DNA from: a virus
Strand: one strand, 5' to 3'
DNA: 64,000 bases
IMG/VR virus record: IMGVR_UViG_3300044655_000744
Location: 1-64,000 of that record
The position numbers were made by a program, and so were the translations under genes. Under the pieces are notes generated by a model. It did no database searches and was not told the origin of the DNA. It was given only the letters and a program-made list of their open reading frames with translations. Numbering within the stretch: position 1 is the stretch's first letter; each line of letters starts with the position of its first letter. Below, one piece after another: positions 20,990 through 37,063 of the stretch.

Positions 20990-21011
20990 TTAACACTATT
21001 CAGTGGAAAAA

Positions 21012-21167
21012 TTATGCCGTTTGGGCAACTTTGGCTTCAACGTATTCTTTAATAAATTTAATTGCTTTACGGCTTGTATCAAACACAAACTCTTTTGCTT
21101 CGTCTTCTGTGTTTAGGATAACAATAAAACCGTTAGTTACCTTACGAATTTCAATTGATTCAAACAT
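21012..21167 (-). CDS. Small conserved phage protein (51 aa)
   Basis: ATG at 21167 with AAGGAA nine bases upstream, TAA at 21012. MFESIEIRKVTNGFIVILNT then EDEAKEFVFDTSRKAIKFIK: two strands and a helix. I recognise similar short proteins in T4-like phages. Own sigma70-type promoter at 21207. Confidence 0.7.
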   Translation of the reverse strand: MFESIEIRKVTNGFIVILNTEDEAKEFVFDTSRKAIKFIKEYVEAKVAQTA

Positions 21168-21206
21168 TATATAATTCCTTAATTGATTATAAACTCTTAC
21201 TCTACA

Positions 21207-21235
21207 ATAGTAACACCAATTGAATCAATAGTCAA
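21207..21235 (-). promoter_or_regulatory. Sigma70-type promoter
   Basis: TTGACT (21235-21230), 17 bases, TACTAT (21212-21207). It abuts the terminator of the SAH hydrolase gene and serves the 51-residue gene. Confidence 0.55.
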
Positions 21236-21265
21236 CAAAAAAGGCACCATAAGATGCCTTTTTCT
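21236..21265 (-). terminator. Rho-independent terminator after SAH hydrolase
   Basis: Minus strand AAAAGGCA-TCTTATGG-TGCCTTTTTT: an 8-bp stem followed by a T-run, about 20 bases beyond the stop at 21282. Confidence 0.8.
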
Positions 21266-21281
21266 TTACTTTTTGGCTAGA

Positions 21282-22568
21282 TTAATAGCGATAAGTGTCT
21301 GGTTTGAACGGTCCTTCAACTCTAACGCCAATATAGTTAGCCTGATCCGTTGACAACTCTGTTAGTTGCGCACCAATTTGTGCTAGGTGTAGTTTAGCCA
21401 CTTTTTCATCTAGGTGTTTAGGCAACAAATGAATACTACCAGTATTGTAGTCTTCCCAGTTCTGGAACATTTCAATTTGTGCTAACACTTGATTAGTAAA
21501 GCTGTTTGACATAACAAAGCTAGGATGTCCTGTACCACAACCTAAGTTTACTAGTCGACCTTTGGCTAGAACAATAATCTTACGGCCACTTGGCATGGTC
21601 ACATGATCTACCTGTGGTTTAATCTCATCCCACTCGTAGCCAGCAATACTAGCAATGTCAATCTCGCTGTCAAAGTGACCAATGTTACATACGATAGCAT
21701 TGTTCTTCATAGCCGTCATATGATCGTGAGTGATAACGTTGATGTTACCTGTGGCTGTTACAAAGATGTCTGCTTTGTCTGCGGCATAGTCCATAGTAAC
21801 CACACGATAGCCTTCCATTGCGGCCTGTAGTGCGCAGATTGGATCTACTTCAGTTACCCAAACCTGAGCACTTAAGGCACGTAATGCAGCCGCACTACCT
21901 TTGCCCACATCTCCAAACCCTGCTACCACAGCAATCTTGCCTGCGATCATAACATCAGTAGCACGTTTAATACCATCAACTAAACTTTCACGACATCCGT
22001 ATAAGTTATCAAATTTAGTTTTAGTTACACTATCGTTAACGTTAATAGCACGTAGTTTAAAACTGCCGTTGGCAATAGCTTCGTTGATCTTATGGATACC
22101 TGTTGTGGTTTCTTCTGTAACTCCGCGAATGCCTGCTAGTAAGTTTGGATAGTTTTGATGAATATACCAAGTTAGGTCATGGCCGTCATCTAAGATCATA
22201 TTTGGTGTCCAACCTTCTTTACCACTGATTGTCTGTTCAATACACCACCAGTAATCAGCTTCTGTTTCACCTTTCCACGCATACACAGGAACACCTTGTT
22301 CAGCTAAGGCAGCTGCCGCATGATCCTGTGTACTAAAGATGTTACAGCTTGACCAGCGTACATCAGCACCTAAGGCGATAAGTGTCTGTACTAGCACCGC
22401 AGTTTGAATAGTCATATGTAATGACCCTACGATACGAGCACCCGCAAGTGGTTGCTGTAGTCGGTATTCTTCTCTAACTGCCATTAATCCCGGCATTTCC
22501 GTTTCCGCAATTGCTATTTCTTTATGGCCCCATGCGGCTAGGCCAATGTCTGCGACTTTATAATCCAT
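21282..22568 (-). CDS. ahcY: S-adenosylhomocysteine hydrolase
   Basis: 428 residues from the ATG at 22568, directly after the stop of the upstream gene; the open frame extends further but into that gene. Splits SAH to adenosine and homocysteine, relieving product inhibition of methyltransferases. Present are [11 protein letters not shown] (substrate site), [16 protein letters not shown], the NAD-binding [33 protein letters not shown] and the C-terminal KPDTYRY whose Lys and Tyr complete the NAD site of the partner subunit. Every key block is intact. With at least five methyltransferases and six radical SAM proteins nearby, a role in keeping SAM chemistry running is a reasonable inference. Confidence 0.95.
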
Positions 22569-22569
22569 A

Positions 22570-22764
22570 TTATTCAGCCTTAGGTAATTGCGGAGTATTG
22601 CTAGAACGCAATTCACTAAACTTACGATTTTTGCTGGCCGTAAAACTTGACTGAGCATCAACCATTGCGTTTTTATAAATGCGACGTGCCTCTGGATCTA
22701 ATATCCCACCCAATTGAATCTTGTTCATTTTACCAAATTTAAATGTTGCGTTTGTTTTTGCCAT
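22570..22764 (-). CDS. Small basic conserved phage protein
   Basis: 64 residues, [20 protein letters not shown] then [16 protein letters not shown]. Lys/Arg-rich, helical second half. Similar short proteins beginning MAKTNATFK occur in T4-like phages. GGAGAGCAAC upstream; two bases before ahcY. Confidence 0.7.
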
Positions 22765-22774
22765 GTTGCTCTCC

Positions 22775-23014
22775 TTAGATTGAGTTTACTTTTAGATTTA
22801 ATACAAAATTCTCTACTAACAGTTTAGTTACTGTTGCTAACAATATTGCTTCGCCATCGTCACTTTGCGTGTAATGTTGATATAACTCATACGCTTGACT
22901 GCCAACTAATTGATAGATCCTGTCCTTTTCTAAAGGTAGGCCTTCCCAATCAATTTCATCACTAAGTTCTACTTCTTTAGCAAGTTGTATGATTTCTTCT
23001 TGTGTATATTTCAT
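22775..23014 (-). CDS. Small conserved hypothetical protein
   Basis: 79 residues, MKYTQEEIIQLAKEVELSDEIDWEGLPLEKD..., acidic N-terminus then two amphipathic helices. First gene of an operon with ahcY, driven by the promoter at 23021. Not recognised. Confidence 0.65.
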   Translation of the reverse strand: MKYTQEEIIQLAKEVELSDEIDWEGLPLEKDRIYQLVGSQAYELYQHYTQSDDGEAILLATVTKLLVENFVLNLKVNSI

Positions 23015-23020
23015 ATAATT

Positions 23021-23049
23021 AGTATACCTTATATCTGTGAATAAGTCAA
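23021..23049 (-). promoter_or_regulatory. Sigma70-type promoter for the ahcY operon
   Basis: TTGACT (23049-23044), 17 bases, TATACT (23026-23021), directly in front of the 79-residue gene; it overlaps the 3' end of the preceding nucleotidyltransferase gene. Confidence 0.65.
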
Positions 23050-24068
23050 ATAAAATCTGTTAAATTATCACTATCACGTTTTAAATTAACAGCAATAGCA
23101 CGCGGATACCGATTTGCTTCATTATAATCATTAATAAGGATACGTTTAACATTCTTTAACCCACTGATTAATTCAAAGTCAACAAAGCCCAAGCTCTTAA
23201 GCATGGCGATATCCTCTTTGCGACGGCTTTCGGGCCTAGCTGTGGTAAAGATTAATTGGCCGCCGTTGGCTACTAGTTGTTTAACTCGTTCAATGTTTTT
23301 AGGCAATGGTGTAACTGGATCATCCTTCATACGATTCTGCGCCACAATAATTGTACCGTCTATATCACAGAACACCACTGCTTTGTCATTATACTCAAAC
23401 CAATCTTCAGCGGTGCCCACATCGTCATAGTCAGTGACTAATGATTCTTTAAAAATGTGTTGATCATTTAGGCACTGTTCGATAACGTGGCTAACAAAGA
23501 TTTCTTTTACATTAGCCGCATTAAGGCGATTATATGCGTCAACAAACATACTAGCACTAGCAAACTTATAGCCGCCAACGCAGAATTTATCACTGATCAC
23601 TTGTTTTTCAATAATGCTAGTAATAATACCTTGATCGTTGCTGATAATAAAACTTTTACTGCCTAACTTCTTAAGCACGTCGTGATCTTTAATACTGCTT
23701 ACACAGACATAATTGCCTTCTTGGTATTCGTGGTTAAAGAAACTATCGCAGTCTTTAACTAATATCTCCGTACTTGGGGCAATTTCTGCGGCTTTGATGA
23801 TCTGATATACTGTGTCGGCTGGGCCAGTTGTACGATTAGGTAAAACAATAACAGTAATGTCGTTGGGATATTTGTCTAGAATATAATCTACAACCGAATA
23901 CCGTTGTTCATTTTCTTCTATCAACCCTATTGTGATGTGATGCTTACCCAGGTAAGGAGCAATACTACGTTCAAACATCATGTCACCAGTATAGTCAGCA
24001 AGACTGTACTTAGGGCGCATACCCGGAAAGCGTGTACTTAATCCTGCGGCTGGTACAATTATTTCCAT
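23046..24068 (-). CDS. Nucleotidyltransferase-HAD phosphatase fusion
   Basis: 340 residues in two parts. Residues 1-220: sugar-nucleotidyltransferase-like GT-A fold (IVPAAGLSTRFPGMRPKYSL, a variant of the GxGxR...K signature; VKDCDSFF as the metal site). Residues 225-340: HAD phosphatase-like domain with VVFCDIDGTI (nucleophile Asp and acid Asp), IFTTARPESR and ILINDYN. Such fusions make and trim activated sugars or polyols for surface glycans. It is last in an operon with kinase, transferase and acyltransferase genes. Confidence 0.75.
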   Translation of the reverse strand: MEIIVPAAGLSTRFPGMRPKYSLADYTGDMMFERSIAPYLGKHHITIGLIEENEQRYSVVDYILDKYPNDITVIVLPNRTTGPADTVYQIIKAAEIAPSTEILVKDCDSFFNHEYQEGNYVCVSSIKDHDVLKKLGSKSFIISNDQGIITSIIEKQVISDKFCVGGYKFASASMFVDAYNRLNAANVKEIFVSHVIEQCLNDQHIFKESLVTDYDDVGTAEDWFEYNDKAVVFCDIDGTIIVAQNRMKDDPVTPLPKNIERVKQLVANGGQLIFTTARPESRRKEDIAMLKSLGFVDFELISGLKNVKRILINDYNEANRYPRAIAVNLKRDSDNLTDFI

Positions 24069-24799
24069 AATCGTTTAATTCCTTCTAATAAAAATATATG
24101 CTCAAACGTACCTCGTTGAGCATGTCTATAAACACGTAGTAGCATTAGGATTAACAAGTAATCATTATCTGCTTCTGGATAGCATAACTTAAGTTGCTGA
24201 CTGATGTAATTTGTTTTAACATCTAATACAATATCATCGTTACGAGTAAACCAATGTAAATCCAAGTCTTGACACAATTTAGCAATGTCAAATACGTAAC
24301 TGTCATATTCTATAGTAGCACAGTCAATTAGATAAAATCCACCTTCTGTGTAAATGATATTTTCTAATGTCAGGTCACCTACATAATTGCTATGTGGTAA
24401 GTGTGTGGGCAATCTGGCTATAAGTTCTTCAGCAGTAAATGGTAGTAGAGTAAAGTCTATTTCAGATAGTTTAGATTTATAAACTTCGGTATAGTCTTTA
24501 AGCGATTGATCTCCCATTAGTTGTGCTATAAGTTCAATTAAAAATTGTAGTAGACGATTAGGTTGATGGCTCTTAAGATATGTTTTAATATCTAGGCCGT
24601 GTATGTATTCCATGTCTAGGGTAATATCACTATTCCTAATTATATAAGGCACAGGATATCCACCTAATCTTAAGGCTGTTAGTCGTTCTACGTTTCGGCC
24701 AACTGCCCCAACTTTCCTAACAAACAAGCCCTGCTCGTTTTCCATTAGGAATATTTGATTGCCGCTAAAGCCACGAAATGTTTTTATTAAGTTAGCCAC
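24059..24799 (-). CDS. APH/choline-kinase-like phosphotransferase
   Basis: 246 residues with a degenerate nucleotide-binding N-lobe (GFSGNQIFLMENEQGLFVRKVG), and a C-lobe containing SNYVGDLTLENIIYTEGGFYLIDCATIEYDSYVFDIAKL. That corresponds to the catalytic GDLTLENI (HGDLHxxNI in the family) and metal-binding LIDCA block; the D-F-G equivalent Asp is conserved. Likely phosphorylates a sugar or amino-alcohol in the glycan pathway. Overlaps both neighbours. Confidence 0.65.
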   Translation of the reverse strand: MANLIKTFRGFSGNQIFLMENEQGLFVRKVGAVGRNVERLTALRLGGYPVPYIIRNSDITLDMEYIHGLDIKTYLKSHQPNRLLQFLIELIAQLMGDQSLKDYTEVYKSKLSEIDFTLLPFTAEELIARLPTHLPHSNYVGDLTLENIIYTEGGFYLIDCATIEYDSYVFDIAKLCQDLDLHWFTRNDDIVLDVKTNYISQQLKLCYPEADNDYLLILMLLRVYRHAQRGTFEHIFLLEGIKRLWK

Positions 24800-25865
24800 G
24801 TGATCTCAAATGTGGAGTTAGCCATTCAACTGGTATGCTATTGGTATGATCAAAGTCGGTGCTATAACAATGCATAGGTACACGTGTGCTAGCTATATAG
24901 GCTGCATCACGTGCTTGTTTCATTGCTAGTTGATCATAGTCTTCATTTGTGTCAACCCAAACAATCTTATCCTTCCAAAATAAAGGAATATCTTCTTGAA
25001 CCCAACGATAATCAGTACCTGTGGGTTGGGCAGCATAGAGCCATTGGCTAGTAGGATTAAAATTAGTCCAGGTGTTATCTCTTTCAGTGTAGCCGATACG
25101 TATTTCCATACCAGTACCAAAGAAGCCATCCGGGATAACCAACGGCGGAGCAACGTTAATTATCTGTGGGCTTACGTGACTGTATCCGTCGTAATGTCTG
25201 ACTAGCTCGCGCAATGGTGCGTATACTGGAGCGGTTAGCTCGTAACCTTTGTGCCACAGTGTATCTGTGCGGAATACCACTTCATCGCCGTATTCATTGT
25301 CTGCCCAATACTTCTTAAAGCGTGCTACCTTAAGAATACGTATAGCATCAAAGGTACGCCAAGTATATTTGACATAGTTCCCATCTGCTGTAAGTTCACA
25401 GTTATGGTGCTTACTCAATCGCATCTGTTCAGGCCAATGGCTGTAATAGATTACACTGTAGGGATTAGGGTCTTGTTGTAGATTTTTAATACCAGCACGT
25501 AGCATATCCAAACTACTGTCAATGAAGATATGGTCGTCATTGCCAGCAAAGAAGATTAGTTCATTGTCATCTGTAAACTGTTCGCATAGTGTACGCCAGT
25601 CTCTGGTATGATTGATACGGTGCCAATGTAGCTCTACATCAGGAAACAACGTGTAGATATATTCTTCTAGCTCTTGTTTACGATTAGCAAACTCAGCTTC
25701 AATTTGAATGTAGAAAATACATTTAGAAATTACTGGTAGCATTGCTGCGTAACTAGCCAGGCAATATTTAAATATGTCCATTCGACTATATTTAGGTAAC
25801 CAGTCACTGCGATGATAATAACTTAGTCCTTGGCTGGTAATTTTTACATTGAATAATAATATCAC
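24792..25865 (-). CDS. Putative glycosyltransferase
   Basis: 357 residues. The segment ELIFFAGNDDHIFIDSS near residue 105 contains an NDDH motif at the position of the DXD metal site in GT-A enzymes, preceded by a strand-helix pattern (KQELEEYIYTLFPDVELHWHRINH). Rich in Trp, Tyr and His. Function assigned from this motif and from the acyltransferase and kinase on either side. Confidence 0.55.
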   Translation of the reverse strand: MILLFNVKITSQGLSYYHRSDWLPKYSRMDIFKYCLASYAAMLPVISKCIFYIQIEAEFANRKQELEEYIYTLFPDVELHWHRINHTRDWRTLCEQFTDDNELIFFAGNDDHIFIDSSLDMLRAGIKNLQQDPNPYSVIYYSHWPEQMRLSKHHNCELTADGNYVKYTWRTFDAIRILKVARFKKYWADNEYGDEVVFRTDTLWHKGYELTAPVYAPLRELVRHYDGYSHVSPQIINVAPPLVIPDGFFGTGMEIRIGYTERDNTWTNFNPTSQWLYAAQPTGTDYRWVQEDIPLFWKDKIVWVDTNEDYDQLAMKQARDAAYIASTRVPMHCYSTDFDHTNSIPVEWLTPHLRSRG

Positions 25866-26575
25866 AGATCAGTTCTTTTTAATAATTTTCCATAGGCCGC
25901 AGTAGTTCCAGGCTCCATGTCTTTTGTTACCAGTTCATGTGCGTAAATTTTACAATTGTCGCCAATCGTTACGTTAGGCTGTTTAGCACTATGTCCATTT
26001 AACACTGTGGCCTTAGTACCCACATAAACATTATTGCCCAAGATAACATTGCTCATTAAGTACGCACCAGCACTTAGTATACAGTTGTCACCAACTGTAA
26101 CGTCGTTGGCAAAACCTGAATTGTCCAATAGGTTACAATGTTGGCCTACACGTGCCCCACCTCTGATGTTTACACCTCGGCTAACAAATGTTCCTGGTCC
26201 GAATTCTACATTTTTACTTAAAAGACTGCGTGGATCTATTAAAGTATGTAACGGTAGCTGTAGATCATCTATAAACTTAATTCGTTGTAGGCGTAATTGA
26301 TAGCCACTTAGGACGTCACTGCCTAGGTTACTATTACCATCCCAGAAGTTACCTACAAAGAATTTAGCGTCATTGAATTTTTTAGGATTTGATATTAGAT
26401 CAAGTTCACTACCTAAGCAAGGTAGTCCGTCGACTGACTCAATACGACCAGCATAGTATTGATCTAAGAATCCCAGAACTTCTATATCTAAGGCCGCGCA
26501 GGTGTCGACTATAAAGTCCCACGTTTGTCTACAGCCGATAATTACCAATGGTGATTTTTTGTCAGTGATTGTCAT
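25862..26575 (-). CDS. Sugar O-acyltransferase, left-handed beta-helix (PglD-like)
   Basis: 237 residues. An N-terminal Rossmann-like segment (PLVIIGCRQTWDFIVDTCAALDIEVLGFLDQ) is followed by hexapeptide repeats (VEFGPGTFVSRGVNIRGGAR, VTVGDNCILSAGAYL, VILGNNVYVGTKATV, VTIGDNCKI) ending in a short helix. This is the layout of PglD/NeuD-type acetyltransferases that acetylate a nucleotide amino-sugar. First gene of the operon; promoter at 26600. Confidence 0.82.
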   Translation of the reverse strand: MTITDKKSPLVIIGCRQTWDFIVDTCAALDIEVLGFLDQYYAGRIESVDGLPCLGSELDLISNPKKFNDAKFFVGNFWDGNSNLGSDVLSGYQLRLQRIKFIDDLQLPLHTLIDPRSLLSKNVEFGPGTFVSRGVNIRGGARVGQHCNLLDNSGFANDVTVGDNCILSAGAYLMSNVILGNNVYVGTKATVLNGHSAKQPNVTIGDNCKIYAHELVTKDMEPGTTAAYGKLLKRTDL

Positions 26576-26578
26576 ATA

Positions 26579-26586
26579 AGTAAATA
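26579..26586 (+). promoter_or_regulatory. Late-type octamer AGTAAATA, 5 bases before ATG
   Basis: AGTAAATA-TAATT-ATG on the plus strand: the octamer, five bases, then the desaturase start, with no Shine-Dalgarno. Same geometry as several other genes here. Confidence 0.45.
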
Positions 26587-26591
26587 TAATT

Positions 26592-27386
26592 ATGCTTAAA
26601 TTATACTATCATGTAAAAAACTTGTCAAACTATCAGCAGACTTTGATTGTCCAATCACTGTTATATCTAACGGTATTATTTACATTAGTATTTGTCTTTG
26701 ACTTAGAGTTATTCTTATGGGGATTATTAATAGGTTGGGTATTATTTTGCGTTGGAGTTAGTATTAGTTTACACAAATGGGCAAGTCATCGAACATTTGA
26801 GCCGCGTAATAGATTAATAAAGTTATTCCTATTATGGGCAGGTACGCAAACAACTCTAGGTACTAGTATAGGATTTGCTGCTGGGCATCGTCAACATCAT
26901 AGAGATAGTGACGGTCCGACTGATCCGTTTATATTGACTGATAGTTTATGGCACAATATTAAGTTGTGGTTCTATCATTTCCCTACTAGCACTATTAGTC
27001 CCAGAATAGTTAAAGACCTAACAGCCGATAGCGATTACAAATTCTTTCATAAAAACTATTGGACAATATGGTCAGTGGTTCCTGCTAGTCTATTGTTAGT
27101 TGGTCCAATGTACTTTGTGTATTTCTTTGCTTTACCGGCAGTGTATGTATTTTTAGGGATGAGCTATGTCACTGTTGTAGCGCACAGCCCTCGATGGAAG
27201 AAATTGTTTAATGGCACAAACAGTTACAACGAACTAGACCACAGCTGGGATAGTTTGTTCTTTACAGTATTGTTTGCTGGAGAAGGATATCACCACAGCC
27301 ACCATGTCTATCCCGGAAAATACAATTATCAAGAAGTTAATGAACGCTTTGATCCAGCTGGTTGGATCATCCGTTTTCTTAAGTAG
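26592..27386 (+). CDS. Fatty-acid desaturase (acyl-CoA/lipid delta-9 type)
   Basis: 264 residues, integral membrane di-iron desaturase: hydrophobic segments near residues 20-60 and 155-195, and three histidine boxes, HKWASH (box 1), HRQHH (box 2) and HHSHH (box 3, after GEGYHHSHH). Introduces a double bond into fatty acyl chains, raising membrane fluidity. All His ligands are in place. Transcribed towards the second desaturase; their 3' ends overlap by eight bases. Its first codons overlap the divergent sigma70 promoter of the acyltransferase gene. Confidence 0.9.
   Translation: MLKLYYHVKNLSNYQQTLIVQSLLYLTVLFTLVFVFDLELFLWGLLIGWVLFCVGVSISLHKWASHRTFEPRNRLIKLFLLWAGTQTTLGTSIGFAAGHRQHHRDSDGPTDPFILTDSLWHNIKLWFYHFPTSTISPRIVKDLTADSDYKFFHKNYWTIWSVVPASLLLVGPMYFVYFFALPAVYVFLGMSYVTVVAHSPRWKKLFNGTNSYNELDHSWDSLFFTVLFAGEGYHHSHHVYPGKYNYQEVNERFDPAGWIIRFLK
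26600..26628 (-). promoter_or_regulatory. Sigma70 promoter of the glycan operon
   Basis: TTGACA (26628-26623), 17 bases, TATAAT (26605-26600), perfect consensus, reading left into the acyltransferase gene and lying wholly inside the start of the divergent desaturase coding region. Confidence 0.8.
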
Positions 27387-28197
27387 GAAAGTGTTGGTTG
27401 TACTGAACTCTATTTGGCACACGCCCAATCAATTTGATTAGCCAAAAACCCAAATCCCAATCTTGATCTGTGAACTTATTGCGGGCGGCGCCTGGTCTAG
27501 CATGATGATTATTATGATTGCCGTCGCCTGGCACAAAAACACTAGCCACACGACTGTTAAAACTTAAATCTCGACTATCAAAATTCTTATAGCCAAACCG
27601 AGACAACCAAGTATTGTGTGCTAGCACTGTGATATAACTGATAGCAGTAAATCCGTAAATTACCGGAACAAAGTAAAGGTAACAGGCTAACTTAATATCT
27701 ATTAGAGACAGCAGCAATACATACCCTAGCACAATTTTAAAATAATGATGATGGAAAAATTTATGTGTAGAGTCTGACATCAAGTCTTTAACTGTTCTTG
27801 GGTTAATATGATAGGTAGGGAAATAATAAAACCAAAGTTTAATACTGCGCCAAACTCCACCGCCATGAGTGTTAGGACTGTGTGGGTCTTCTGGTTTATC
27901 ACTGAACTGATGATGTTTACGGTGAGTAGCGGCCCAACTAATATTGCTACCTAGGCTAAGGATAGAACTACAAAATAACATAATCACCTTAAAGGCAGGG
28001 TGTTTACATTCAAAACTTTTATGACTACTGTATTTGTGTAGGCCCATGCTAGCGCCTATTAGGAATAATATCCAGCTAAATGCCAAACTTAATAGCAGAT
28101 ATATTAAATTAAATTGATATGCCATGGTGTAAATAAAACCAACATAGGCAAACGTTTGCAACATTTTTACTTTGGTGTCTAGACTAATTTTTATCAT
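27379..28197 (-). CDS. Second fatty-acid desaturase
   Basis: 272 residues, same architecture as the plus-strand gene but clearly diverged. Histidine boxes HKYSSH, HRKHH and HNNHH (GDGNHNNHHARPG); box 3 is preceded by FVPGDGN. Four hydrophobic segments. Two different desaturases side by side suggest action at different chain positions or on different substrates, rather than a recent duplication. It has both a sigma70-type and a T4-late-like promoter, so it may be expressed through infection. Confidence 0.9.
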   Translation of the reverse strand: MIKISLDTKVKMLQTFAYVGFIYTMAYQFNLIYLLLSLAFSWILFLIGASMGLHKYSSHKSFECKHPAFKVIMLFCSSILSLGSNISWAATHRKHHQFSDKPEDPHSPNTHGGGVWRSIKLWFYYFPTYHINPRTVKDLMSDSTHKFFHHHYFKIVLGYVLLLSLIDIKLACYLYFVPVIYGFTAISYITVLAHNTWLSRFGYKNFDSRDLSFNSRVASVFVPGDGNHNNHHARPGAARNKFTDQDWDLGFWLIKLIGRVPNRVQYNQHFPT

Positions 28198-28203
28198 GAT
28201 ACT

Positions 28204-28232
28204 ATTATATATGCTTTATTATTTATAGTCAA
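28204..28232 (-). promoter_or_regulatory. Overlapping early and late promoters
   Basis: TTGACT (28232-28227), 17 bases, TATAAT (28209-28204) gives a sigma70-type promoter. Inside its spacer is TATAAATA (28227-28220), an exact match to the T4 late consensus. ATG of the desaturase is at 28197. Confidence 0.65.
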
Positions 28233-28260
28233 AAAAAAGCTCACCGAAGTGAGCTTTTTT
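28230..28260 (-). terminator. Rho-independent terminator after the porin gene
   Basis: AGCTCAC-TTCG-GTGAGCT stem with a TTCG tetraloop flanked by A and T runs on both sides, so it can act in both directions. It ends porin transcription 20 bases past the stop. Confidence 0.88.
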
Positions 28261-28278
28261 GGTTAAACTAAATTATTC

Positions 28279-29490
28279 TTAGAAGAATAAGATAGCGCCT
28301 GCCGATACTGAACGTGATTTACCTTCAGCACCGTTTTGTGCTTCTGATTTAACGTCTGAGTATTCAGCTACTAAGTTCACGTGTTTTGTGAGTGGGTGAT
28401 AAGCACCAACAGTCCACATTTCGTTTTTCGAAACCAATGCGGTAGCTGTTTCACCACTGTTACGGCCTAGTTTACTTTGACCCCAGCTTACGCCAAGTTT
28501 AGTTGCTGTAGGCAATGTGTATGTACCTTGAACGTAGCCACCGTTTGAATCACGACGACGACCTGTAGTATCAAACCCGTCTACTAATTGAATAGTACGA
28601 CCAATACCTTTACCATCATAGTAGTAAGCAGTTAAGCCATATGGACCAGCAGCTAAATTAGTACCAACGTCCCAAGCATAAGCGCGGTCATCTGCGGCAG
28701 AGCCAGTTACACCTTCAACTTTTTGTGAAATAGCACTTGACCATACTTTAGCAGCAATAGGACCTTCTAATGAGTAAGATACTTTACCTTCAAATGCTGG
28801 TTGAGCACCACCGCGTCCTGTTGATGTAGCTGAAGCAGCTTGTACGCCAGCAGTTACGGCATTTAGATCAGCTGTTTGAGCGTTCCATGCCTGTGTTACA
28901 CCTACTGTGAATTGGAAGCCGTCAAAGTTTGGTGATGTGTAAGCAACTTGTGATTTCCAGTCAGCATACATAAAGCCACTACCGATACGACCTAATGTAG
29001 TTGTGTTACCAGCTAGTGCGCCAGCACCTGCACCAACACCTAACAATGTCATATCGTTTAAGATAGCATCACTAGCAAAAATACCCAGGTCTTTACCTAG
29101 TTTTACACTACCCCATGATTTATCACCGATAGTTAAAAATGCTTGACGATTTTCTTGATTAGCACCTTGATCGCCACCCTGTGTTGTTGAAGCACCTGGG
29201 TTAATAGCGATTGTAAAACCAATGTCTAAATCATTTTGACGTGATTTACCAGAAATTGATAATACGTTTGGTAACAAGCCTGTTGTAATGTTTGATTCGT
29301 TACGTTGAGCATTGGCATTAGGACCACCTAGACCACCAACCACTGCACTACCTGTGCCGCGTGTGTTTGTATAGTAAGCGTTAACAACGCCACCAATGTC
29401 TAATGTCCAATCACCTGCCGGAACTTGAATACCTGCGTTTGCTGTAGAGTACATACCAGCTAATAATGTTGCTAATAATAATTTCTTCAT
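28279..29490 (-). CDS. Outer-membrane porin, beta-proteobacterial type
   Basis: 403 residues from the ATG at 29490 with AAAGGAG eleven bases upstream. Sec signal peptide MKKLLLATLLAGMYSTANA with an ANA cleavage site, then GIQVPAGDWTLDIGGVVNAYY, typical first strands of a Gram-negative general porin. Repeated GYY/aromatic-girdle strands (KVSYSLEG, YGLTAYYYDG, AEYSDVKS) and a terminal Phe (SAGAILFF), the BAM-recognition signature. Complete, in frame, with late-type promoter and strong terminator. It looks acquired from a host but is set up for phage-timed expression. Possible roles: altering permeability, replacing or masking the phage receptor, or nutrient supply. Which one cannot be told from sequence. 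Confidence 0.9.
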   Translation of the reverse strand: MKKLLLATLLAGMYSTANAGIQVPAGDWTLDIGGVVNAYYTNTRGTGSAVVGGLGGPNANAQRNESNITTGLLPNVLSISGKSRQNDLDIGFTIAINPGASTTQGGDQGANQENRQAFLTIGDKSWGSVKLGKDLGIFASDAILNDMTLLGVGAGAGALAGNTTTLGRIGSGFMYADWKSQVAYTSPNFDGFQFTVGVTQAWNAQTADLNAVTAGVQAASATSTGRGGAQPAFEGKVSYSLEGPIAAKVWSSAISQKVEGVTGSAADDRAYAWDVGTNLAAGPYGLTAYYYDGKGIGRTIQLVDGFDTTGRRRDSNGGYVQGTYTLPTATKLGVSWGQSKLGRNSGETATALVSKNEMWTVGAYHPLTKHVNLVAEYSDVKSEAQNGAEGKSRSVSAGAILFF

Positions 29491-29545
29491 TACTTTACTT
29501 CTCCTTTTAATGGATAACACTAATGTTATACTATCAGTGTATACG

Positions 29546-29553
29546 TATTTATC
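29546..29553 (-). promoter_or_regulatory. Late-type promoter octamer GATAAATA for the porin
   Basis: GATAAATA on the minus strand 55 bases before the porin ATG, leaving a leader with the AAAGGAG site. Confidence 0.5.
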
Positions 29554-29600
29554 GTAGTCGTTAACAGAGTGTTGCCTTTTGACAACATAGTTTGATAAAA

Positions 29601-29618
29601 TGTTGTATTTTTACAACA
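29601..29618 (-). other. Hairpin over the stop codon of a radical SAM gene
   Basis: TGTTGTA-AAAA-TACAACA, a perfect 7-bp stem that includes the TAA at 29611. A weak terminator or an mRNA 3' end marker. Confidence 0.4.
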
Positions 29619-30948
29619 CTTCCTGGTGCGCTTGCGCAAATTGATCTTCTAACCAAGGCCACAAATCTCGCCAGTTAGTGCCCCTGCGACGATCCATTTC
29701 ATTTAAGTAGGTTTCTAGCATAAGAATTTTACTAGGATCACGCGGTGTCTTTTCTATGCTGTTAGCAATACCTGCCATATACTCTTTAAAGTTCCGCTGA
29801 TATTCTGTGACCGTAGGCATGACGTCAATGACTCTCTGCATATCTTCAGTAAATACACCAGGGCCAAACCACAAGGGGTTTAACTGTGTAGGTTGTAAGA
29901 CGTGCATAAAACTAATACAGATATGCTTAGTAGGTGCTCTAAACTTATCTAAAGCATTTAGTTTCTCAATAAGCTCGGGTAGAGTTTTAATACTAAGTGG
30001 AGTAATGGTTAGATTAACATTAAGAATAATCCATTCTTGTTTGGCCATGTACTCAAAGTTCTTTTCCCATTCGCTAAGTTTTAATCCCCAACGAATGTAT
30101 TCTGCCTGCGGACCCCAACAGTCCATGCTAGCACTGATATTAAGATGTTTAATCTTTTTATCGTCAACCATACGTTTAAGTCTATCAATATAGCCAACAA
30201 AACGCTTATGCTCTACTTTAAGATTGGTAACAATAGTAAAGAACAGGTCTGGGTTAGGATAGTTGTCCCAATGATCTAAGACCATGTCAAATTCTTTTTG
30301 GAAGAAGGGTTCGCCACCCAACATACCAAAGTTCCAGATCTTATGCCCGTGAATGCGTAACCACTCAAACAACTTATCACGCATATCATCATAGCGAGTT
30401 TGATCACGTTCCCAACTTGGGTTAACTAAAATGCCATCTTCCACAGCACTAAATTTGCGATTCTCTTCTTCCCACATGGTACTGAAATGCGGACCACAGT
30501 ACAAGCAGGCCATGTTACATACATTGTTAAAGTAGACTTCTACAATAGTAGGAGTAACTTCTATGGCTTCTGGATTTTCGATAAGTTCCGGAGGCAGTAC
30601 GTTGGTGTGGGTTTCAAACACACCTTTAAGATTACGCAGTTGCACTAGGCGATCACTAACTCCGCCTTTGTCTTCCATGTGCTTACAATATGTACAGCCG
30701 TTAAGGCCGAACTTATCTGTTTCACTTTCCTCAGGCCACCCACCAGCAAGCATACGCTTACGGTCATCTAACTTTTTAGGTAGGTTGTGGAAATTATCAA
30801 AGTTTTCTACAGTTAAATCGTTGTGTACTGTGCGATGACAACTAGCAGTAGTAGCACGATTGAGATAGATCGTACTCCATGACCATTTAAGGTAGCATGA
30901 GGTATCTGATTTTATTGGCCATACTTTGCGATTATCGGTCATATTCAT
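29611..30948 (-). CDS. Radical SAM protein (twitch-type, phage family)
   Basis: 445 residues. [4Fe-4S] motif NNVCNMACLYCGPHFS at about residue 160, MLGGEPFFQKEFD (the GGE strand) and a triosephosphate-isomerase-barrel-like order of strands. The N-terminal part has NGCTYCKHMEDKGG, a Cys pair that may bind an auxiliary cluster (half-SPASM or twitch arrangement). A single gene of a family widespread in phages of aquatic bacteria; substrate unknown. It overlaps the oxygenase-like gene upstream by 17 bases, so the two are coexpressed and may modify the same target. Confidence 0.85.
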   Translation of the reverse strand: MNMTDNRKVWPIKSDTSCYLKWSWSTIYLNRATTASCHRTVHNDLTVENFDNFHNLPKKLDDRKRMLAGGWPEESETDKFGLNGCTYCKHMEDKGGVSDRLVQLRNLKGVFETHTNVLPPELIENPEAIEVTPTIVEVYFNNVCNMACLYCGPHFSTMWEEENRKFSAVEDGILVNPSWERDQTRYDDMRDKLFEWLRIHGHKIWNFGMLGGEPFFQKEFDMVLDHWDNYPNPDLFFTIVTNLKVEHKRFVGYIDRLKRMVDDKKIKHLNISASMDCWGPQAEYIRWGLKLSEWEKNFEYMAKQEWIILNVNLTITPLSIKTLPELIEKLNALDKFRAPTKHICISFMHVLQPTQLNPLWFGPGVFTEDMQRVIDVMPTVTEYQRNFKEYMAGIANSIEKTPRDPSKILMLETYLNEMDRRRGTNWRDLWPWLEDQFAQAHQEVL

Positions 30949-31564
30949 CCGGAGTTTTAATTGTTAGGCCTAATAAGACACTATATCTATCGTAGTTGCT
31001 ATTATTAATACCACTGTGGTAATTCTCATAAGCATTTGCCGCAAACCAGCCTGAGCCAAACTCTGTGTTCATTACTACAGGATTAGTTAATTGGCGATCT
31101 TCGTAAAATGTTGTAGCTACATCAGGGTCATTATGTTCTGTAAAATATATCATGCCTGCGCCGACAAGTCTACGATAGTCGTTGTGTGGTTCTAATTTAA
31201 ATCCAGGTTTGTCTAACATAAATTCCATGTGTAGTGTTGCCCACTTGCGCATTTGATCTTTCGATAGGCTCCACATACCTTCGAATCCGGGATTAAAAGA
31301 ATATAGTGCTTCTAATAAAGGTTCGTGCGTGTCGATGCTTTGTAAGAAATCGTGTATTTGTTTTAACAAAGGACTAGTTATATCTTCACGCATTAATCTG
31401 TAGCGTCGACTCCAGTTATAGTTTTCGTGTCCCATAGGAACACTTTCTCCCCAACTAGTCCACTTTTGTTTTTTAAGTTCTTCTATTAACGTTGTGTGAT
31501 CTACACCTGGGTCAAATTTAATCGACGATAGCAAATATCTTGCTTGACTGAATTCTATTTTCAT
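30932..31564 (-). CDS. 2-oxoglutarate/Fe(II) oxygenase-like protein
   Basis: 210 residues. A jelly-roll signature in the second half: EPHNDYRRLVGAGMIYFTE gives the H-x-D iron ligands, YHSGINNSNYDRYSV gives the distal His and the 2-oxoglutarate-binding Arg. The spacing and the RRLVGAGMIYFTE block are repeated in the divergent plus-strand gene, so the two are paralogues. Such enzymes hydroxylate proteins, nucleotides or small molecules. ATG lies five bases after AATAAATA without a Shine-Dalgarno. Confidence 0.75.
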   Translation of the reverse strand: MKIEFSQARYLLSSIKFDPGVDHTTLIEELKKQKWTSWGESVPMGHENYNWSRRYRLMREDITSPLLKQIHDFLQSIDTHEPLLEALYSFNPGFEGMWSLSKDQMRKWATLHMEFMLDKPGFKLEPHNDYRRLVGAGMIYFTEHNDPDVATTFYEDRQLTNPVVMNTEFGSGWFAANAYENYHSGINNSNYDRYSVLLGLTIKTPDEYDR

Positions 31565-31569
31565 GTTGT

Positions 31570-31586
31570 TATTTATTGGGTAAATA
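31570..31586. promoter_or_regulatory. Back-to-back late octamers in a 27-bp divergent spacer
   Basis: AATAAATA on the minus strand (31577-31570) and GGTAAATA on the plus strand (31579-31586) are one base apart. Each ends five bases before the ATG of the gene it faces (31564 minus, 31592 plus). The whole control region of two paralogous oxygenase genes fits in 27 bases. Confidence 0.55.
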
Positions 31587-31591
31587 TTAGT

Positions 31592-32191
31592 ATGGATATT
31601 ATATTTGACAAAAAACGTAATTTTGTATACGAAACATTCTTAACTGAATTCCCTTATAGTTATGAAGAGCTGTTAACTGACCTTAAACAAGAGGATTGGA
31701 TCAGCTCAGAATCTGAGGGTTTATTGGGCAAGTTTCGTGCGCCAACTCTCAAGAGTGAAAAATTAAAATACATCATTGAATGGTTTACACAAGATTCTGC
31801 TTGCCTTAAAATAATTAAAAATATGTATCAAGACGAAGAATACTTCAATGAGTGGAAATTGTCAGCTGAAGAGCTTGATAACATTACGCATTCTAGTGCT
31901 CTTTGGACTTTAGATAAGCCCGGGTATCATGCTGCTACGCATCTAGACAATCGGCGTATAATAGGAAACGGCATGATATTCTTCACTGAGGGAGACGATC
32001 CTAACCAAAGTACTTTCTTCTATTCCGATAAAAACGGAAATAATCCGTTACGTATACCTACAGGTTATGCCCAGGGGTGGTTTGCTGCTAATACAAACGA
32101 TGCGTGGCACGAAGGGTTCAACCGTACAGCAGACAAAGATCGTTACAGCTTGTATTTTCTTATTTTTATGAATACTGCTAAAAAACATTAA
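31592..32191 (+). CDS. 2-oxoglutarate/Fe(II) oxygenase-like paralogue
   Basis: 199 residues from the ATG at 31592; earlier in-frame starts would run into the divergent gene. HLDNRRIIGNGMIFFTEGDD carries the H-x-D pair and AWHEGFNRTADKDRYSLYF the distal His and Arg, in the same order and spacing as the protein at 30932. The N-terminal halves have diverged. GGTAAATA ends five bases before the ATG. Confidence 0.75.
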   Translation: MDIIFDKKRNFVYETFLTEFPYSYEELLTDLKQEDWISSESEGLLGKFRAPTLKSEKLKYIIEWFTQDSACLKIIKNMYQDEEYFNEWKLSAEELDNITHSSALWTLDKPGYHAATHLDNRRIIGNGMIFFTEGDDPNQSTFFYSDKNGNNPLRIPTGYAQGWFAANTNDAWHEGFNRTADKDRYSLYFLIFMNTAKKH

Positions 32192-32475
32192 CCAGCAAAC
32201 GTATCGCCCGAACCAGCAGCTACCGCAGTACACCCAGCGATAGCATCACCTACTCGACCCATACCCTTACCATTAACAAATACAGTAGCACTACCAGCAG
32301 CTATCGGTGCCGAATGGCCGGGGCAAGGTGCTCCTGGTAATAAATGTCCTGTATTTACATCGCCTTGACGGCTAATAGGAATACCATTACAGAACGTATC
32401 CGGACTACCGACGGCACGTGTCATACCCGAACAGTGTGTTACGTCTGCGTCACCAACTCTAGTTACTGCGGGCAC
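32188..32475 (-). CDS. PAAR-repeat spike tip protein
   Basis: 95 residues with the PAAR layout: MPAVTRVGDADVTHCSG, HLLPGAPCPGHSAPIAAGSATVFVNGKGMGRVGDAI. Metal ligands of the PAAR cone (His/Cys residues in THCSG, CPGHS) are present. PAAR proteins sharpen the tip of the membrane-puncturing spike of contractile tails (T4 gp5.4). Overlaps the gene upstream by 17 bases. Its 3' end meets the plus-strand oxygenase gene, overlapping by four bases. Confidence 0.9.
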   Translation of the reverse strand: MPAVTRVGDADVTHCSGMTRAVGSPDTFCNGIPISRQGDVNTGHLLPGAPCPGHSAPIAAGSATVFVNGKGMGRVGDAIAGCTAVAAGSGDTFAG

Positions 32476-32893
32476 GATTCCATCCTCCGTTTGTTTCTCT
32501 AGCTACTAATTCTGGCAATATCTTTTCCCATGGGCTCATGTCATGATGTATCCAGTGTGTGTATTTAATTAATTCATCTTGCCGTTTGAACGTGTAAGTG
32601 AATGTGATGTCGTGTGTGTCATCTGGGGCAAAGTTAATTACATTGTCAATCTCAAACGGTATATCTTCTAAGCGAGTGTATGTTACTAGTTTGCCATTGA
32701 CTAACACAGTAAACTTATGATTAGAGAATATATCTATACCGTAACTACCTTCTATAACATAGCAATCGTCTTGCTTAGTTACTGTAATATCAGTAGGTTG
32801 AAATGGAGTTACTCCTACAAACTCATCTGCTTCAACCTGAGTGTGTACAGGTTTAAATTGCCATAAGCGTTCGTTTGCTTGTTCACGATTCAA
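32459..32893 (-). CDS. Baseplate-associated protein, unassigned
   Basis: 144 residues, beta-rich with many aromatic residues (FTYTFKRQDELIKYTHWIHH). It lies between the spike-like protein and the PAAR tip with overlaps on both sides, so a baseplate or spike role is likely. No family recognised. Confidence 0.6.
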   Translation of the reverse strand: MNREQANERLWQFKPVHTQVEADEFVGVTPFQPTDITVTKQDDCYVIEGSYGIDIFSNHKFTVLVNGKLVTYTRLEDIPFEIDNVINFAPDDTHDITFTYTFKRQDELIKYTHWIHHDMSPWEKILPELVARETNGGWNRARSN

Positions 32894-33142: not shown

Positions 33143-33171
33143 TACTACAAAAGGGTGAAAAAAGTAATTGG

Positions 33172-33262
33172 CGGAGAGCGAGGGATTCGAACCCTCGATA
33201 CAGATTTAAGCCCGTATGCTTCCTTAGCAGGGAAGTGCCTTCGACCACTCGGCCAGCTCTCC
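33172..33262 (-). tRNA. tRNA-Ser(GCT)
   Basis: Class II tRNA with acceptor GGAGAGC/GCTCTCC, anticodon loop CTGCTAA, long variable arm and GGTTCGAATCC T-arm. CCA is encoded (33169-33171). Confidence 0.95.
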
Positions 33263-33268
33263 GAAATC

Positions 33269-33450
33269 AAGTGTTAGGTATTTTTGTGTCAGGAACCTAA
33301 CAAACCCCGTGAGCGCAGCCCATCCTCTTTTCGCGTCAGCGGAACCAGAATTGTCTCTTACGAGATTGAGGTCTGGTCTTTATATGGACGGTTTGCCGGT
33401 CTCTCCTAACCTCGAATACATAATGTACCGGCTTTCTTCCAAATTTTAAA
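33269..33450 (-). ncRNA. Structured RNA leader upstream of tRNA-Ser
   Basis: About 180 bases between promoter and tRNA, more GC-rich than the surroundings and full of pairing: GCCGGT...ACCGGC, CCAGA with an inner TCTC-GTAA-GAGA hairpin closing on TCTGG, CCG-CTGA-CGCG...TGCG-CTCA-CGG, and TGTTAGGT...ACCTAACA just before the tRNA. There are only two very short frames (13 and 8 codons). I do not recognise the class. Confidence 0.5.
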
Positions 33451-33462
33451 ACTAATAAAACT

Positions 33463-33492
33463 ATTATAGCATGCCATCGCGACTATCGTCAA
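33463..33492 (-). promoter_or_regulatory. Sigma70 promoter for ncRNA and tRNA-Ser
   Basis: TTGACG (33492-33487), 18 bases, TATAAT (33468-33463). Confidence 0.65.
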
Positions 33493-33617
33493 CCTAAATT
33501 GGTTGTGATTCTTTCCATGCTGTGTCGGCTATTCTCTACAAGGGTTTTTCAACTACTACCGAGTGCCGCTTACCCCAAACTCTACGCGATTAAAGAATTC
33601 TTTACAGTGTGCTATAC

Positions 33618-33625
33618 ACTAAATA
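33618..33625 (+). promoter_or_regulatory. Late-type octamer ACTAAATA, 5 bases before ATG
   Basis: ACTAAATA-TTTTT-ATG on the plus strand, no Shine-Dalgarno. Confidence 0.45.
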
Positions 33626-33630
33626 TTTTT

Positions 33631-34197
33631 ATGAAACCGTACTACGAACTAGAGTATACTAACGTTAACCAAATAAGTCACGAAGTCTATGAATATTTAC
33701 ATTCTAATACTGACTTATTAGAGAAAACGCACGATCAAGAATGGCATTACTTAGATCGCAATAGTGTAATTGCTAGTTGTCCAACTTTATTAGACTTTTT
33801 TAAACTATATCATCTAGTCCCACGCGATATGGCTGTTACTATCTGCTATAACAATTTTGCCGTTCATATCGACAGCCCACCGGTTGTAGCTAAAATAAAC
33901 TTTCCTGTACTTAACACTAAGAATACAGTAAACCGTTGGTACACAATGTCCGACGAAGATTTTCAAAACTTACCTAAGATATCCGATGTTGCCAAGGACG
34001 GATACTTTCACGAAGATATGACCAACTTCCCCAAAGAGAAATTAACATTAGTAGGCGAATATCATAATATGATGAACCCAATTGTGTTTAACAGTCGCAT
34101 ACCACACGAAGTTGTTATGTTAGGTAATAATCTTACTCCTAGAATAGTACTAAGCTGTACCTTTGCCAACGAACCCTTAAGGTATCTAGCGGAGTAA
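33631..34197 (+). CDS. Aspartyl/asparaginyl hydroxylase-like oxygenase
   Basis: 188 residues from the ATG at 33631; an upstream GTG/ATG extension would cover the promoter region and lacks a binding site. AVHIDSPPVVAKINFPVLN gives H-x-D followed by a strand; RIPHEVVMLGNNLTPRIVLSCTF gives the distal His and an Arg on the next strand. This is the H-x-D...H...R order of cupin-type 2-oxoglutarate oxygenases, but it differs from the two paralogues at 30932 and 31592. Converges with and overlaps the radical SAM gene at 34186 by 12 bases. Confidence 0.6.
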   Translation: MKPYYELEYTNVNQISHEVYEYLHSNTDLLEKTHDQEWHYLDRNSVIASCPTLLDFFKLYHLVPRDMAVTICYNNFAVHIDSPPVVAKINFPVLNTKNTVNRWYTMSDEDFQNLPKISDVAKDGYFHEDMTNFPKEKLTLVGEYHNMMNPIVFNSRIPHEVVMLGNNLTPRIVLSCTFANEPLRYLAE

Positions 34198-35292
34198 TTG
34201 ATCTAGTTCGGGCCACAGTTGATTAAATTTTAAATCTTCAGTGCTGCACTCATTTACAAATTTATAAAAATTATCTATTTGATCAGGTACTTCAATTTGG
34301 TCAGCAGCAAAATATTGAACAATTGTATTATGCTCATCCCATTCAGTTTGAATATCTTTGTATACATTTTCTGCTTGTGTTTTAATAGTATTAACTATAT
34401 GCTTAGGAAATTTACGCAGATCCAATTCCGCAGGCTGATCTAAAAATTGAAATACAATTTTAATACGTTTGTCAAAGGCAAAATCAGTCAATACTTTAAA
34501 AGCACTTAGGCTTAATATATTGAGAATAGCATGTATGTCTATAATATGGCCCTGCGTTCTTTCTAAGCCCAATAGCAAATCTAAATTTTTAGTCAACTGT
34601 TCCCAACTTGCTCCTCTACGCACAAATTCAAACTGTTTTCCTACATTTTCAAAACTCACACTCCAGCGCACTTTCTTTCTAGTAGATAGGCGCTGAAATA
34701 CCGGATTGTTTTCTAAGTTTAAACTTAAATTTGAAATTACATGAATATCAACTGTGTCCGGTATATTGTCAAGCAGGTCTGCGCATTGCGGAATTAACAA
34801 AGGCTCACCACCAATTAATGCCACAGTTTTAAGATTTTGTTGATGAGCAGTTATATAATCAATGACATTAGTATAATATTCTTTGCGTTTAGTCTGTAGT
34901 GGGATACTTAACTTTTTGGCCCACATACTACTATCGTTTGGATTACAGTACACGCACATCAAATTACAAGCATTGCTCCAACGTACATCTAATATAGCAG
35001 GAGCATGATAATTAGAACCTAAGTCATTTATATCCAAACTATTATTGTTATGCCAGTTACGTTCGCTAGTAGTGACATCACCTTGCTGTTTACAGCCTAT
35101 ACAATAATTAGGAATATCATTACTGGCAATTTGCTCTCGCAATTCTTGCCAGCTCAATGAATTTAATATTTCTTTAATATTTTGTTCATTGATATTACCA
35201 AATCCGTATGCTCCAGAACAACAAGGTTTAACATCACCTTCGGTTGTAATATGTAAGCCTCTCCACGGAGCTGCGCAATAGACTTTAGTCAT
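34186..35292 (-). CDS. Radical SAM protein with N-terminal SPASM-like cluster
   Basis: 368 residues. The N-terminus has CAAPWRGLHITTEGDVKPCCSG and NYCIGCKQQG, a half-SPASM (twitch) arrangement placed before instead of after the barrel. The radical SAM motif is WSNACNLMCVYCNPND at about residue 110, followed by ALIGGEPLL and WSVSFENV. Clearly paralogous to the protein at 44901 (shared WSN-CN, GGEPLL, RGxxWxxxxxNL). Substrate unknown; similar phage proteins are common in aquatic T4-like phages. Confidence 0.85.
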   Translation of the reverse strand: MTKVYCAAPWRGLHITTEGDVKPCCSGAYGFGNINEQNIKEILNSLSWQELREQIASNDIPNYCIGCKQQGDVTTSERNWHNNNSLDINDLGSNYHAPAILDVRWSNACNLMCVYCNPNDSSMWAKKLSIPLQTKRKEYYTNVIDYITAHQQNLKTVALIGGEPLLIPQCADLLDNIPDTVDIHVISNLSLNLENNPVFQRLSTRKKVRWSVSFENVGKQFEFVRRGASWEQLTKNLDLLLGLERTQGHIIDIHAILNILSLSAFKVLTDFAFDKRIKIVFQFLDQPAELDLRKFPKHIVNTIKTQAENVYKDIQTEWDEHNTIVQYFAADQIEVPDQIDNFYKFVNECSTEDLKFNQLWPELDQLLR

Positions 35293-35306
35293 TTATATTC
35301 CTATGG

Positions 35307-35377
35307 AGCGGGATAAGGGGATCGAACCCTCGCTAAAAGTTTGGAAAACTCTTGTGCTACCATTACACCAATCCCGC
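35307..35377 (-). tRNA. tRNA-Gly(TCC)
   Basis: Acceptor GCGGGAT/ATCCCGC, anticodon loop TTTCCAA, T-arm GAGGGTTCGATCCCCT. CCA encoded at 35304-35306. Confidence 0.93.
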
Positions 35378-35390
35378 ATAAAACTTTTGG

Positions 35391-35463
35391 TGCCGGTTAA
35401 CGGAATCGAACTGTTGACCTTCGCATTACAAGTGCGCTGCTCTACCTGCTGAGCTAAACCGGC
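35391..35463 (-). tRNA. tRNA-Thr(TGT)
   Basis: Acceptor GCCGGTT/AACCGGC, D-arm GCTCAGCAGGTAGAGC, anticodon loop CTTGTAA. CCA encoded. Confidence 0.95.
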
Positions 35464-35474
35464 TTAAAACTTGG

Positions 35475-35547
35475 TACTCCCAACGAGATTCGAACTCGTG
35501 TTACCTGCGTGAAAGGCGGGTGTCCTAGGCCTCTAGACGATGGGAGC
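35475..35547 (-). tRNA. tRNA-Glu(TTC)
   Basis: Acceptor GCTCCCA/TGGGAGT, anticodon loop CTTTCAC, T-arm CGAGTTCGAATCTCG. CCA encoded. Confidence 0.95.
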
Positions 35548-35750
35548 AAGGTGTCTAGCTACCAGCACTACCTGGCCCTAAACTGAGTAGTTACCCTGTC
35601 CGACTGTTTCCATCTGGTACGAAACAATAAAACCCCTACGTATTTCTCAAGTCGCTCGGAAATGGAGCCTTGCAGTAGAACGTATGCACTGTGCCGTTAT
35701 GGTATTGGCAATGACCCACTTTCATAAAGTAAAAGTGTAACCCTAGTGTT
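35548..35750 (-). ncRNA. Structured spacer RNA between two tRNAs
   Basis: About 200 bases between tRNA-Glu and the initiator-like tRNA, with local stems (CACTTT...GAAAGTG, TGCC...GGCA, CCAG-GTAGTG-CTGG). It also holds a 29-codon frame starting MKVGHCQYHNGTVHTFYC (ATG at 35727 region) with no Shine-Dalgarno. Either a structured RNA or a minigene; I do not recognise it. Confidence 0.4.
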
Positions 35751-35752
35751 GG

Positions 35753-35824
35753 TTGCGGTCGCAGGACTCGAACCTGGTCTCGAGCTTATGAGGCTCGCGA
35801 GCTGCCAATTGCTCCACCACCGCG
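35753..35824 (-). tRNA. tRNA-Met(CAT), initiator-like
   Basis: Anticodon loop CTCATAA. The first acceptor pair is a C1-A72 mismatch (5' CGCGGTG, 3' ...CGCA-A-CCA), the hallmark of bacterial initiator tRNA that allows formylation. The three consecutive G-C pairs next to the anticodon loop are only partly kept (stem CGAGC/GCTCG). CCA encoded. Nearest to the promoter at 35838. Confidence 0.85.
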
Positions 35825-35837
35825 TCAGTATAATAAT

Positions 35838-35866
35838 ATTATATAGTCAACACACACTATTGTCAA
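35838..35866 (-). promoter_or_regulatory. Sigma70 promoter of the first tRNA operon
   Basis: TTGACA (35866-35861), 17 bases, TATAAT (35843-35838), transcribing fMet, Glu, Thr and Gly tRNAs in that order. Confidence 0.85.
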
Positions 35867-35871
35867 CCTAT

Positions 35872-36342: not shown

Positions 36343-36367
36343 ATACTGCCCTTTATTGTATTTACTA

Positions 36368-36787: not shown

Positions 36788-37028
36788 CGTGCTCTCCTCG
36801 CTTTCTTAGTTCATCTATTAGGCCATTATAGGCCAAGGTTTCTTCTTGCCCCAATGCTTCTAACATATTGACGCAACTTATGATATGTGCCGTTTCCATG
36901 TCTCTAATTAACAATATCTTGCGATCTTTAGTTAACCATGTCATACGATGCTGTCTGCGATAATTCTTAAAGTCCGCATTATTTGGCGTGCTTAGTATAT
37001 CCCAGGCTAATTGTTGTTCTTCGGTCAT
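36768..37028 (-). CDS. Small conserved phage protein
   Basis: 86 residues; MTWLTKDRKILLIRDMETAHIISCVNML matches the W-T-KDGK-I-I-DM-x-x-H-I-x-N-x-I motif shared by many T4-like phage proteins of unknown function. Acidic C-terminal tail. Own consensus promoter at 37035. Confidence 0.7.
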   Translation of the reverse strand: MTEEQQLAWDILSTPNNADFKNYRRQHRMTWLTKDRKILLIRDMETAHIISCVNMLEALGQEETLAYNGLIDELRKRGEHDDETVD

Positions 37029-37034
37029 AAGCGT

Positions 37035-37063
37035 ATTATACAGTCATTTAGTTGACTTGTCAA
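37035..37063 (-). promoter_or_regulatory. Sigma70 promoter
   Basis: TTGACA (37063-37058), 17 bases, TATAAT (37040-37035). The -35 is part of a TTGAC-AA-GTCAA palindrome; TGACTGTATAAT around the -10 recurs at 12384, 38475 and 40062. Confidence 0.85.

Follow-up and report, generated by a model that had tools for sequence, protein, structure and literature searches.

The window examined here, i.e., the whole stretch of 64,000 nucleotides, carries two membrane fatty-acid desaturase genes, D1 and D2, which probably encode functional, paralogous and phage-specific FADS enzymes that act on host acyl chains, as judged from their sequences and predicted structures. D1 (26592..27386, plus strand) encodes 264 aa and is the derived paralogue; D2 (27379..28197, minus strand) encodes 272 aa and is the more canonical one. 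The original prediction had described two clearly different desaturases, each with all three His boxes, in convergent orientation and overlapping by eight bases at their 3' ends, and all of this was borne out. The stop codons (D1, TAG at 27384-27386; D2, TAA at 27381-27379) place the overlap at 27379..27386 (TTAAGTAG), and the two products are 36% identical. Their His boxes read HKWASH, HRQHH and HHSHH plus VAH in D1, and HKYSSH, HRKHH and HNNHH plus LAH in D2. Both score above the 29.7-bit cut-off of the Pfam FA_desaturase model (PF00487; 57.6 bits for D1 and 44.6 for D2) and they are the sole FA_desaturase genes of the 99,582-base virus record that contains the window. With the nearest curated model, NCBIfam NF049918 (DesA_fam_desat), D2 scores 70.1 and D1 23.1 bits against a cut-off of 400. 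D1 and D2 are confirmed as intact FADS-type membrane desaturases of predicted activity.

The surrounding genes are viral. A T4-superfamily terminase and a tail sheath have their best named relatives among jumbo phages like Pseudomonas phage PA5oct (54% and 40% identity) and, together with a UvsX-like recombinase in the window, make it most likely that the genome comes, as a fragment, from a jumbo myophage with PA5oct as a distant relative. Both desaturase genes are under purifying selection, as dN lies far below dS in pairs of close relatives (dN/dS ~0.03-0.19; Nei-Gojobori, less saturated pairs), and with these viral neighbours they have the attributes of phage auxiliary metabolic genes. The window also encodes an adenosylhomocysteinase (21282-22661; ahcY equivalog, 597 bits), likewise present at the contig end of relative L008, three radical SAM proteins (29611-30948, 34186-35292 and 44901-46061), one of them of the twitch-domain type (NF033640), and thirteen tRNA genes (33169-37946). 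A tRNA gene directly precedes D2 in relatives L004, L008 and L011.

Conservation of the pair was surveyed by IMG/VR scans and ORF mapping of the matching contigs. Sixteen distinct D2 sequences, that of the window included, have D1 beside them. The arrangement is convergent in 14 distinct viruses (again counting the window), with 3' overlaps of 4-41 nt in the relatives in which both ends are visible, and L016 has one extra 187-aa gene between D1 and D2; for L019 and L025 the contig breaks off within D1. The two remaining viruses, L049 and L050, have a tandem arrangement in which D2 precedes D1 and overlaps it by 1 nt, so function does not depend on convergence. Every contig with D1 also has D2, and two contigs without D1 (L005 and L029) carry a D2-like gene and further desaturases in tandem. 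Near the tandem pairs lie CHASE2-guanylate cyclase, Hsp70 and CsgF-like genes (L050, 2584-4602; L049, 2067-3983 and 8656-9153).

Each of the eight related records that were searched whole holds between two and four desaturases, and viruses with five copies have been reported (PMC7300359). Such numbers could speak for plain dosage, i.e., two copies of one activity that are useful because more enzyme is made late in infection, with no division of labour; we regard this as unlikely, since D1 and D2 have stayed in distinct clades throughout the radiation and D1 shows an invariant change of its own, the DPH that follows box 2 being DPF (as in the window) or DPY in 15 of 15 sequences. We lean instead towards different jobs for D1 and D2, a division of labour conjectured from their divergence.

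Predicted structures place both proteins in the fold of stearoyl-CoA desaturase (SCD). The AlphaFold2 models (mean pLDDT 92.5 for D2 and 95.9 for D1) match human SCD (PDB 4zyo) at Z 22.7 each (rmsd 3.3/2.9 Å over 245/238 residues), and human and mouse SCD taken together at Z 22.4-22.7 over 238-246 residues; among diiron enzymes the next match is the alkane monooxygenase AlkB (Z ~8). In a viral structure library the nearest entries, an OLE1-like phage protein and a fragment from an Emiliania huxleyi virus, are both distant. Compared with SCD1 (PDB 4zyo, 4ymk and 6wf2), the likeness extends to the fold (Z ~22.5) and to the set and order of the nine His ligands, whereas D1 and D2 are shorter, only 19-22% identical, and differ at residues next to the irons and in the substrate contacts. 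The water-holding Asn of SCD1 we take to be the residue four positions before the His of the fourth box, placed through the NSAAH motif. At this second-sphere position (Asn265 in human SCD), the alignment gives Thr in all 31 D1 and D2 sequences, a call made from sequence in a column next to an invariant His, and Gly, Val or Thr in five other members of the phage clade described below; Asn is therefore found in none of the 36 clade members, as against 153 of 155 bacterial homologues from phyla other than that of L165, a contig of a metagenome-assembled bacterial genome. Replacement of catalytic residues in relatives had been named beforehand as an outcome that would refute the prediction. The nine metal-binding His, i.e., those of the three boxes and the fourth His, never change in D1, D2 or any of the 36 clade members, whereas the second-sphere Asn is replaced clade-wide, and desaturation chemistry is for this reason not assured.

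We consider it unlikely that the chemistry departs from plain desaturation. The form of such a departure that we weighed has the phage clade hydroxylating or otherwise oxidizing acyl chains, instead of or besides desaturating them, with the Asn-to-Thr change as the cause. In its favor, beyond the clade-wide loss of Asn, are reports that the iron-site water of SCD1 is bonded to an Asn (PMC9131029) and that the same spatial place is taken by a Glu in AlkB, an extra His in Scs7p and water in SCD1, differences that the AlkB authors suggest may influence the reaction (PMC10110569). However, Thr can also hold a water, the fold and all of the His ligands are those of SCD, and AlkB, a hydroxylase, is much farther away in structure, so we give this account a small share of the probability. 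Hardly better placed is a broader proposal, that of a phage-only branch of diiron membrane oxidases, marked by the Asn-to-Thr change, whose paralogues would act in sequence to yield acyl chains that the host cannot make; if true, this would give a virus-specific membrane chemistry, with unusual double-bond positions or hydroxylated lipids.

As regards substrate, human SCD1 uses Trp262 to bond the acyl carbonyl and Arg155/Asp156 to contact CoA (PMC9825965). These SCD contacts are not conserved in D1 and D2, in which the Arg155, Asp156 and Trp262 columns hold A/C, T/G and S/G, respectively. Their loss argues against an acyl-CoA substrate; as equivalents of Arg155/Asp156 are missing from most bacterial homologues too, this part of the loss is not special to phages.

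The pair is flanked by a NeuD/PglB-like hexapeptide acyltransferase gene (25862..26575, minus strand), the divergent neighbor of D1, and by a gene for a Gram-negative porin (Porin_4; 28279..29520, minus strand), which lies upstream of D2 and has its own late box. The NeuD-like gene also adjoins D1 in L004, L008, L011 and L049. Elsewhere, D2 directly follows nrdB at the end of an nrdA-nrdB run (L010, L015, L016, L018 and L020), and in L026 one more desaturase lies between nrdB and D2. In these five viruses (e.g., L020, 2519-6804) D2 overlaps or abuts the nrdB end, which puts two diiron O2-using enzymes in one operon. The L005 contig (294-9444) has, in a single run, nrdA, nrdB, a desaturase, a FabH-type synthase, a hexapeptide protein, three desaturases and a TauD-like oxygenase.

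The porin had been joined with the desaturases into an envelope-remodelling block, a grouping that the relatives do not uphold. Such a block, serving for example outer-membrane receptivity or superinfection exclusion, would fit with the porin and D2 being on the same strand with late boxes on both, with another outer-membrane barrel at the same place in L007, and with a porin ~6 kb away in the genome of L049. The adjacency is not conserved, though: in no relative is a porin next to the pair, only two of nine records have the porin at all (one related record, G004, has another porin at 48648-49772), and in the window the porin, upstream of D2, has a late box to itself. We therefore hold this reading to be improbable. 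In the nine phage records, which are fragments, there was neither a FabH nor a match to Fer2 ferredoxin, and other parts of these genomes could hold the gene for an electron donor; the FabH-type synthase between the desaturases of L005 lies outside this set.

Late promoters appear to be in general use in this genome. The exact octamer TATAAATA shows no enrichment in the window (4 observed versus ~9 expected), but its core ATAAATA has 16 copies on the minus strand, where nearly all genes lie, versus one on the plus strand; of the 16, 15 fall outside the listed ORFs and 10 sit 5-26 nt before a start codon. This is the pattern of a T4-type late box placed close to starts and apparently used genome-wide. 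D2 has a putative late box of the exact form TATAAATA at 28220..28227 (minus strand), 22 nt before its start. For D1, the candidate late-type, near-leaderless promoter occupies 26575..26591 (plus strand), with TATAAGTAAATATAATT followed by ATG. Its box GTAAATATAATTATG has one mismatch, as does the TATAAGTA that had been proposed beforehand. In the other convergent relatives, (T/G)TAAATATAgttATG precedes D1 at a fixed spacing, as TATAAATATAGTTATG or GTAAATATAGTTATG and close variants, and this conservation lends good support to D1 having a late, near-leaderless start.

A sigma70-type promoter is predicted for D2 at 28204..28232 (minus strand; TTGACT-17-TATAAT, 11/12), overlapping the late box. 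Within the window, sites scoring at least 11/12 number 15 versus 3.5 expected, and perfect 12/12 sites (TTGACA-17-TATAAT) number 9 versus 0.08 expected, all on the minus strand, at 11845, 11996, 12412, 13067, 26628, 35866, 37063, 38503 and 39109, the tRNA region included. This over-representation indicates that the phage does make use of sigma70 promoters, the perfect sites being strong ones, whereas a single 11/12 site such as that of D2 is weaker evidence. The promoters forecast for the pair, i.e., a near-leaderless late start for D1 and a sigma70/late overlap for D2, are upheld. One of the perfect sites is the putative promoter of the NeuD-like gene (26600..26628, minus strand), within the first D1 codons on the opposite strand, and an 11-12/12 site occupies the same place in L004 (6037-6009), L008 (7551-7579) and L011 (7515-7543). 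The divergent promoters are interlocked, the D1 late box lying in the 5' leader of the NeuD-like gene. Between the porin and D2, a hairpin followed by a T run (AGCTCAC-TTCG-GTGAGCT; 28231..28257, minus strand), seen by eye and unlisted by the scan, may be an intrinsic terminator; Rfam gave no match in 21000-32500.

The origin of the pair was addressed with a 99-row tree (PMSF mixture model; ultrafast bootstrap/SH-aLRT). In it, D1, D2 and five further phage desaturases form one clade of 36 rows with support of 100/98 and no bacterial row inside, and D1 forms a clade of its own, also at 100/98; an earlier 148-row tree agrees on the phage-only clade. The bacterial rows were drawn from Pseudomonadota, from the phylum of L165 and from pattern matches; they are biased at box 2, since part of the set was fetched by a THRKHH...DPH pattern. 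The nearest bacterial enzymes are short desaturases of the phylum of L165, at most ~34% identical to D2, and a genome-contig scan with query A1 found no bacterial relative. Bacterial DesA/DesC-like FADS resemble the phage enzymes in their boxes, in core size class and, for D2, in THRKHH...DPHSP; they differ by a best identity of ~34% and by the Asn that is missing from the phage clade. Distances among D1 sequences correlate with those among D2 sequences (Mantel r 0.84; 0 of 5000 permutations). Together with the single phage-only clade, this points, within the limits of the sampling, to an old duplication inside the phage lineage that gave rise to D1 and D2 as paralogues, and not to two donors. 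A phylogeny had been proposed as a check on whether the donors differ; they do not, and two independent acquisitions from different donors, for which the differences at 64% of aligned D1/D2 positions could be adduced, are very improbable in view of the well-supported clade without bacterial members. An Acinetobacter 'phage' match was rejected as a phage desaturase, as it clusters with bacterial enzymes and its neighbouring genes (btuB, ydiU and baeRS) look bacterial. In L165 (1777-7756), two desaturases are interleaved with genes resembling the 2-oxoglutarate-oxygenase type.

Phages with desaturases, including several at a time, are not new. The closest parallel lies in Arctic cryopeg brine viruses (Zhong et al. 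2020, PMC7300359), which have several desaturases per virus (five FAD copies in each of two viruses), virus-only clades and three His boxes. The comparison is by description alone, and the text consulted does not describe a conserved convergent two-gene set, co-divergence or a second-sphere change. Cyanophage lipid desaturases (Roitman et al. 2018, as described by citing papers) are likewise membrane desaturases carried by phages as auxiliary metabolic genes; they belong to cyanophages, and the likeness is one of description and not of sequence. Pelagibacter phage Mosig EXVC030M (MT647606) has an FA_desaturase gene in a T4-type phage, but with 27-28% identity, one match in the record and another gene context. 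Desaturases are also known in a Nitrospira phage (PMC7678222) and in freshwater pelagimyophages (PMC7029224). In the open-paper literature, we found no description of a stable, co-diverging two-gene set with a usual convergent overlap and a clade-wide second-sphere change.

For two phage-specific desaturases acting on host lipids, our proposed sequence of events is as follows, with the reaction, substrate and electron donor being what we infer. D1 and D2 would insert into the host inner membrane, bind two irons, and use O2 with electrons supplied by the host, given that the nine phage records have no Fer2 ferredoxin. Their substrates for dehydrogenation would be acyl chains in membrane lipid or on acyl-ACP, and not acyl-CoA, as they lack the residues with which SCD contacts CoA and the acyl carbonyl. 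The first double bond is probably put in by D2, as the more canonical of the two, while D1, found only with D2, probably targets another position, another acyl pool or the product of D2. The pair would thereby remake the host membrane in mid to late infection, a timing suggested by the promoter motifs. The convergent overlap looks like the result of tight packing once D1 had been inverted with respect to D2, with D1 having its own late promoter.

Ultimately, the recurrence of the pair in at least 16 distinct related viruses suggests that these viruses carry a two-enzyme kit of their own, dedicated to reworking the membrane lipids of the host. Most reports on phage desaturases treat them as auxiliary genes taken from hosts; in this large-phage lineage, the two genes would have arisen by duplication and diversified, and as a pair they stay linked, co-diverge and depart from the cellular enzymes next to the irons. 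The natural series Asn, Thr, Gly and Val at the second-sphere position lets one ask what role this residue plays in FADS enzymes, and the question of whether phages remodel host lipids becomes a two-gene test.
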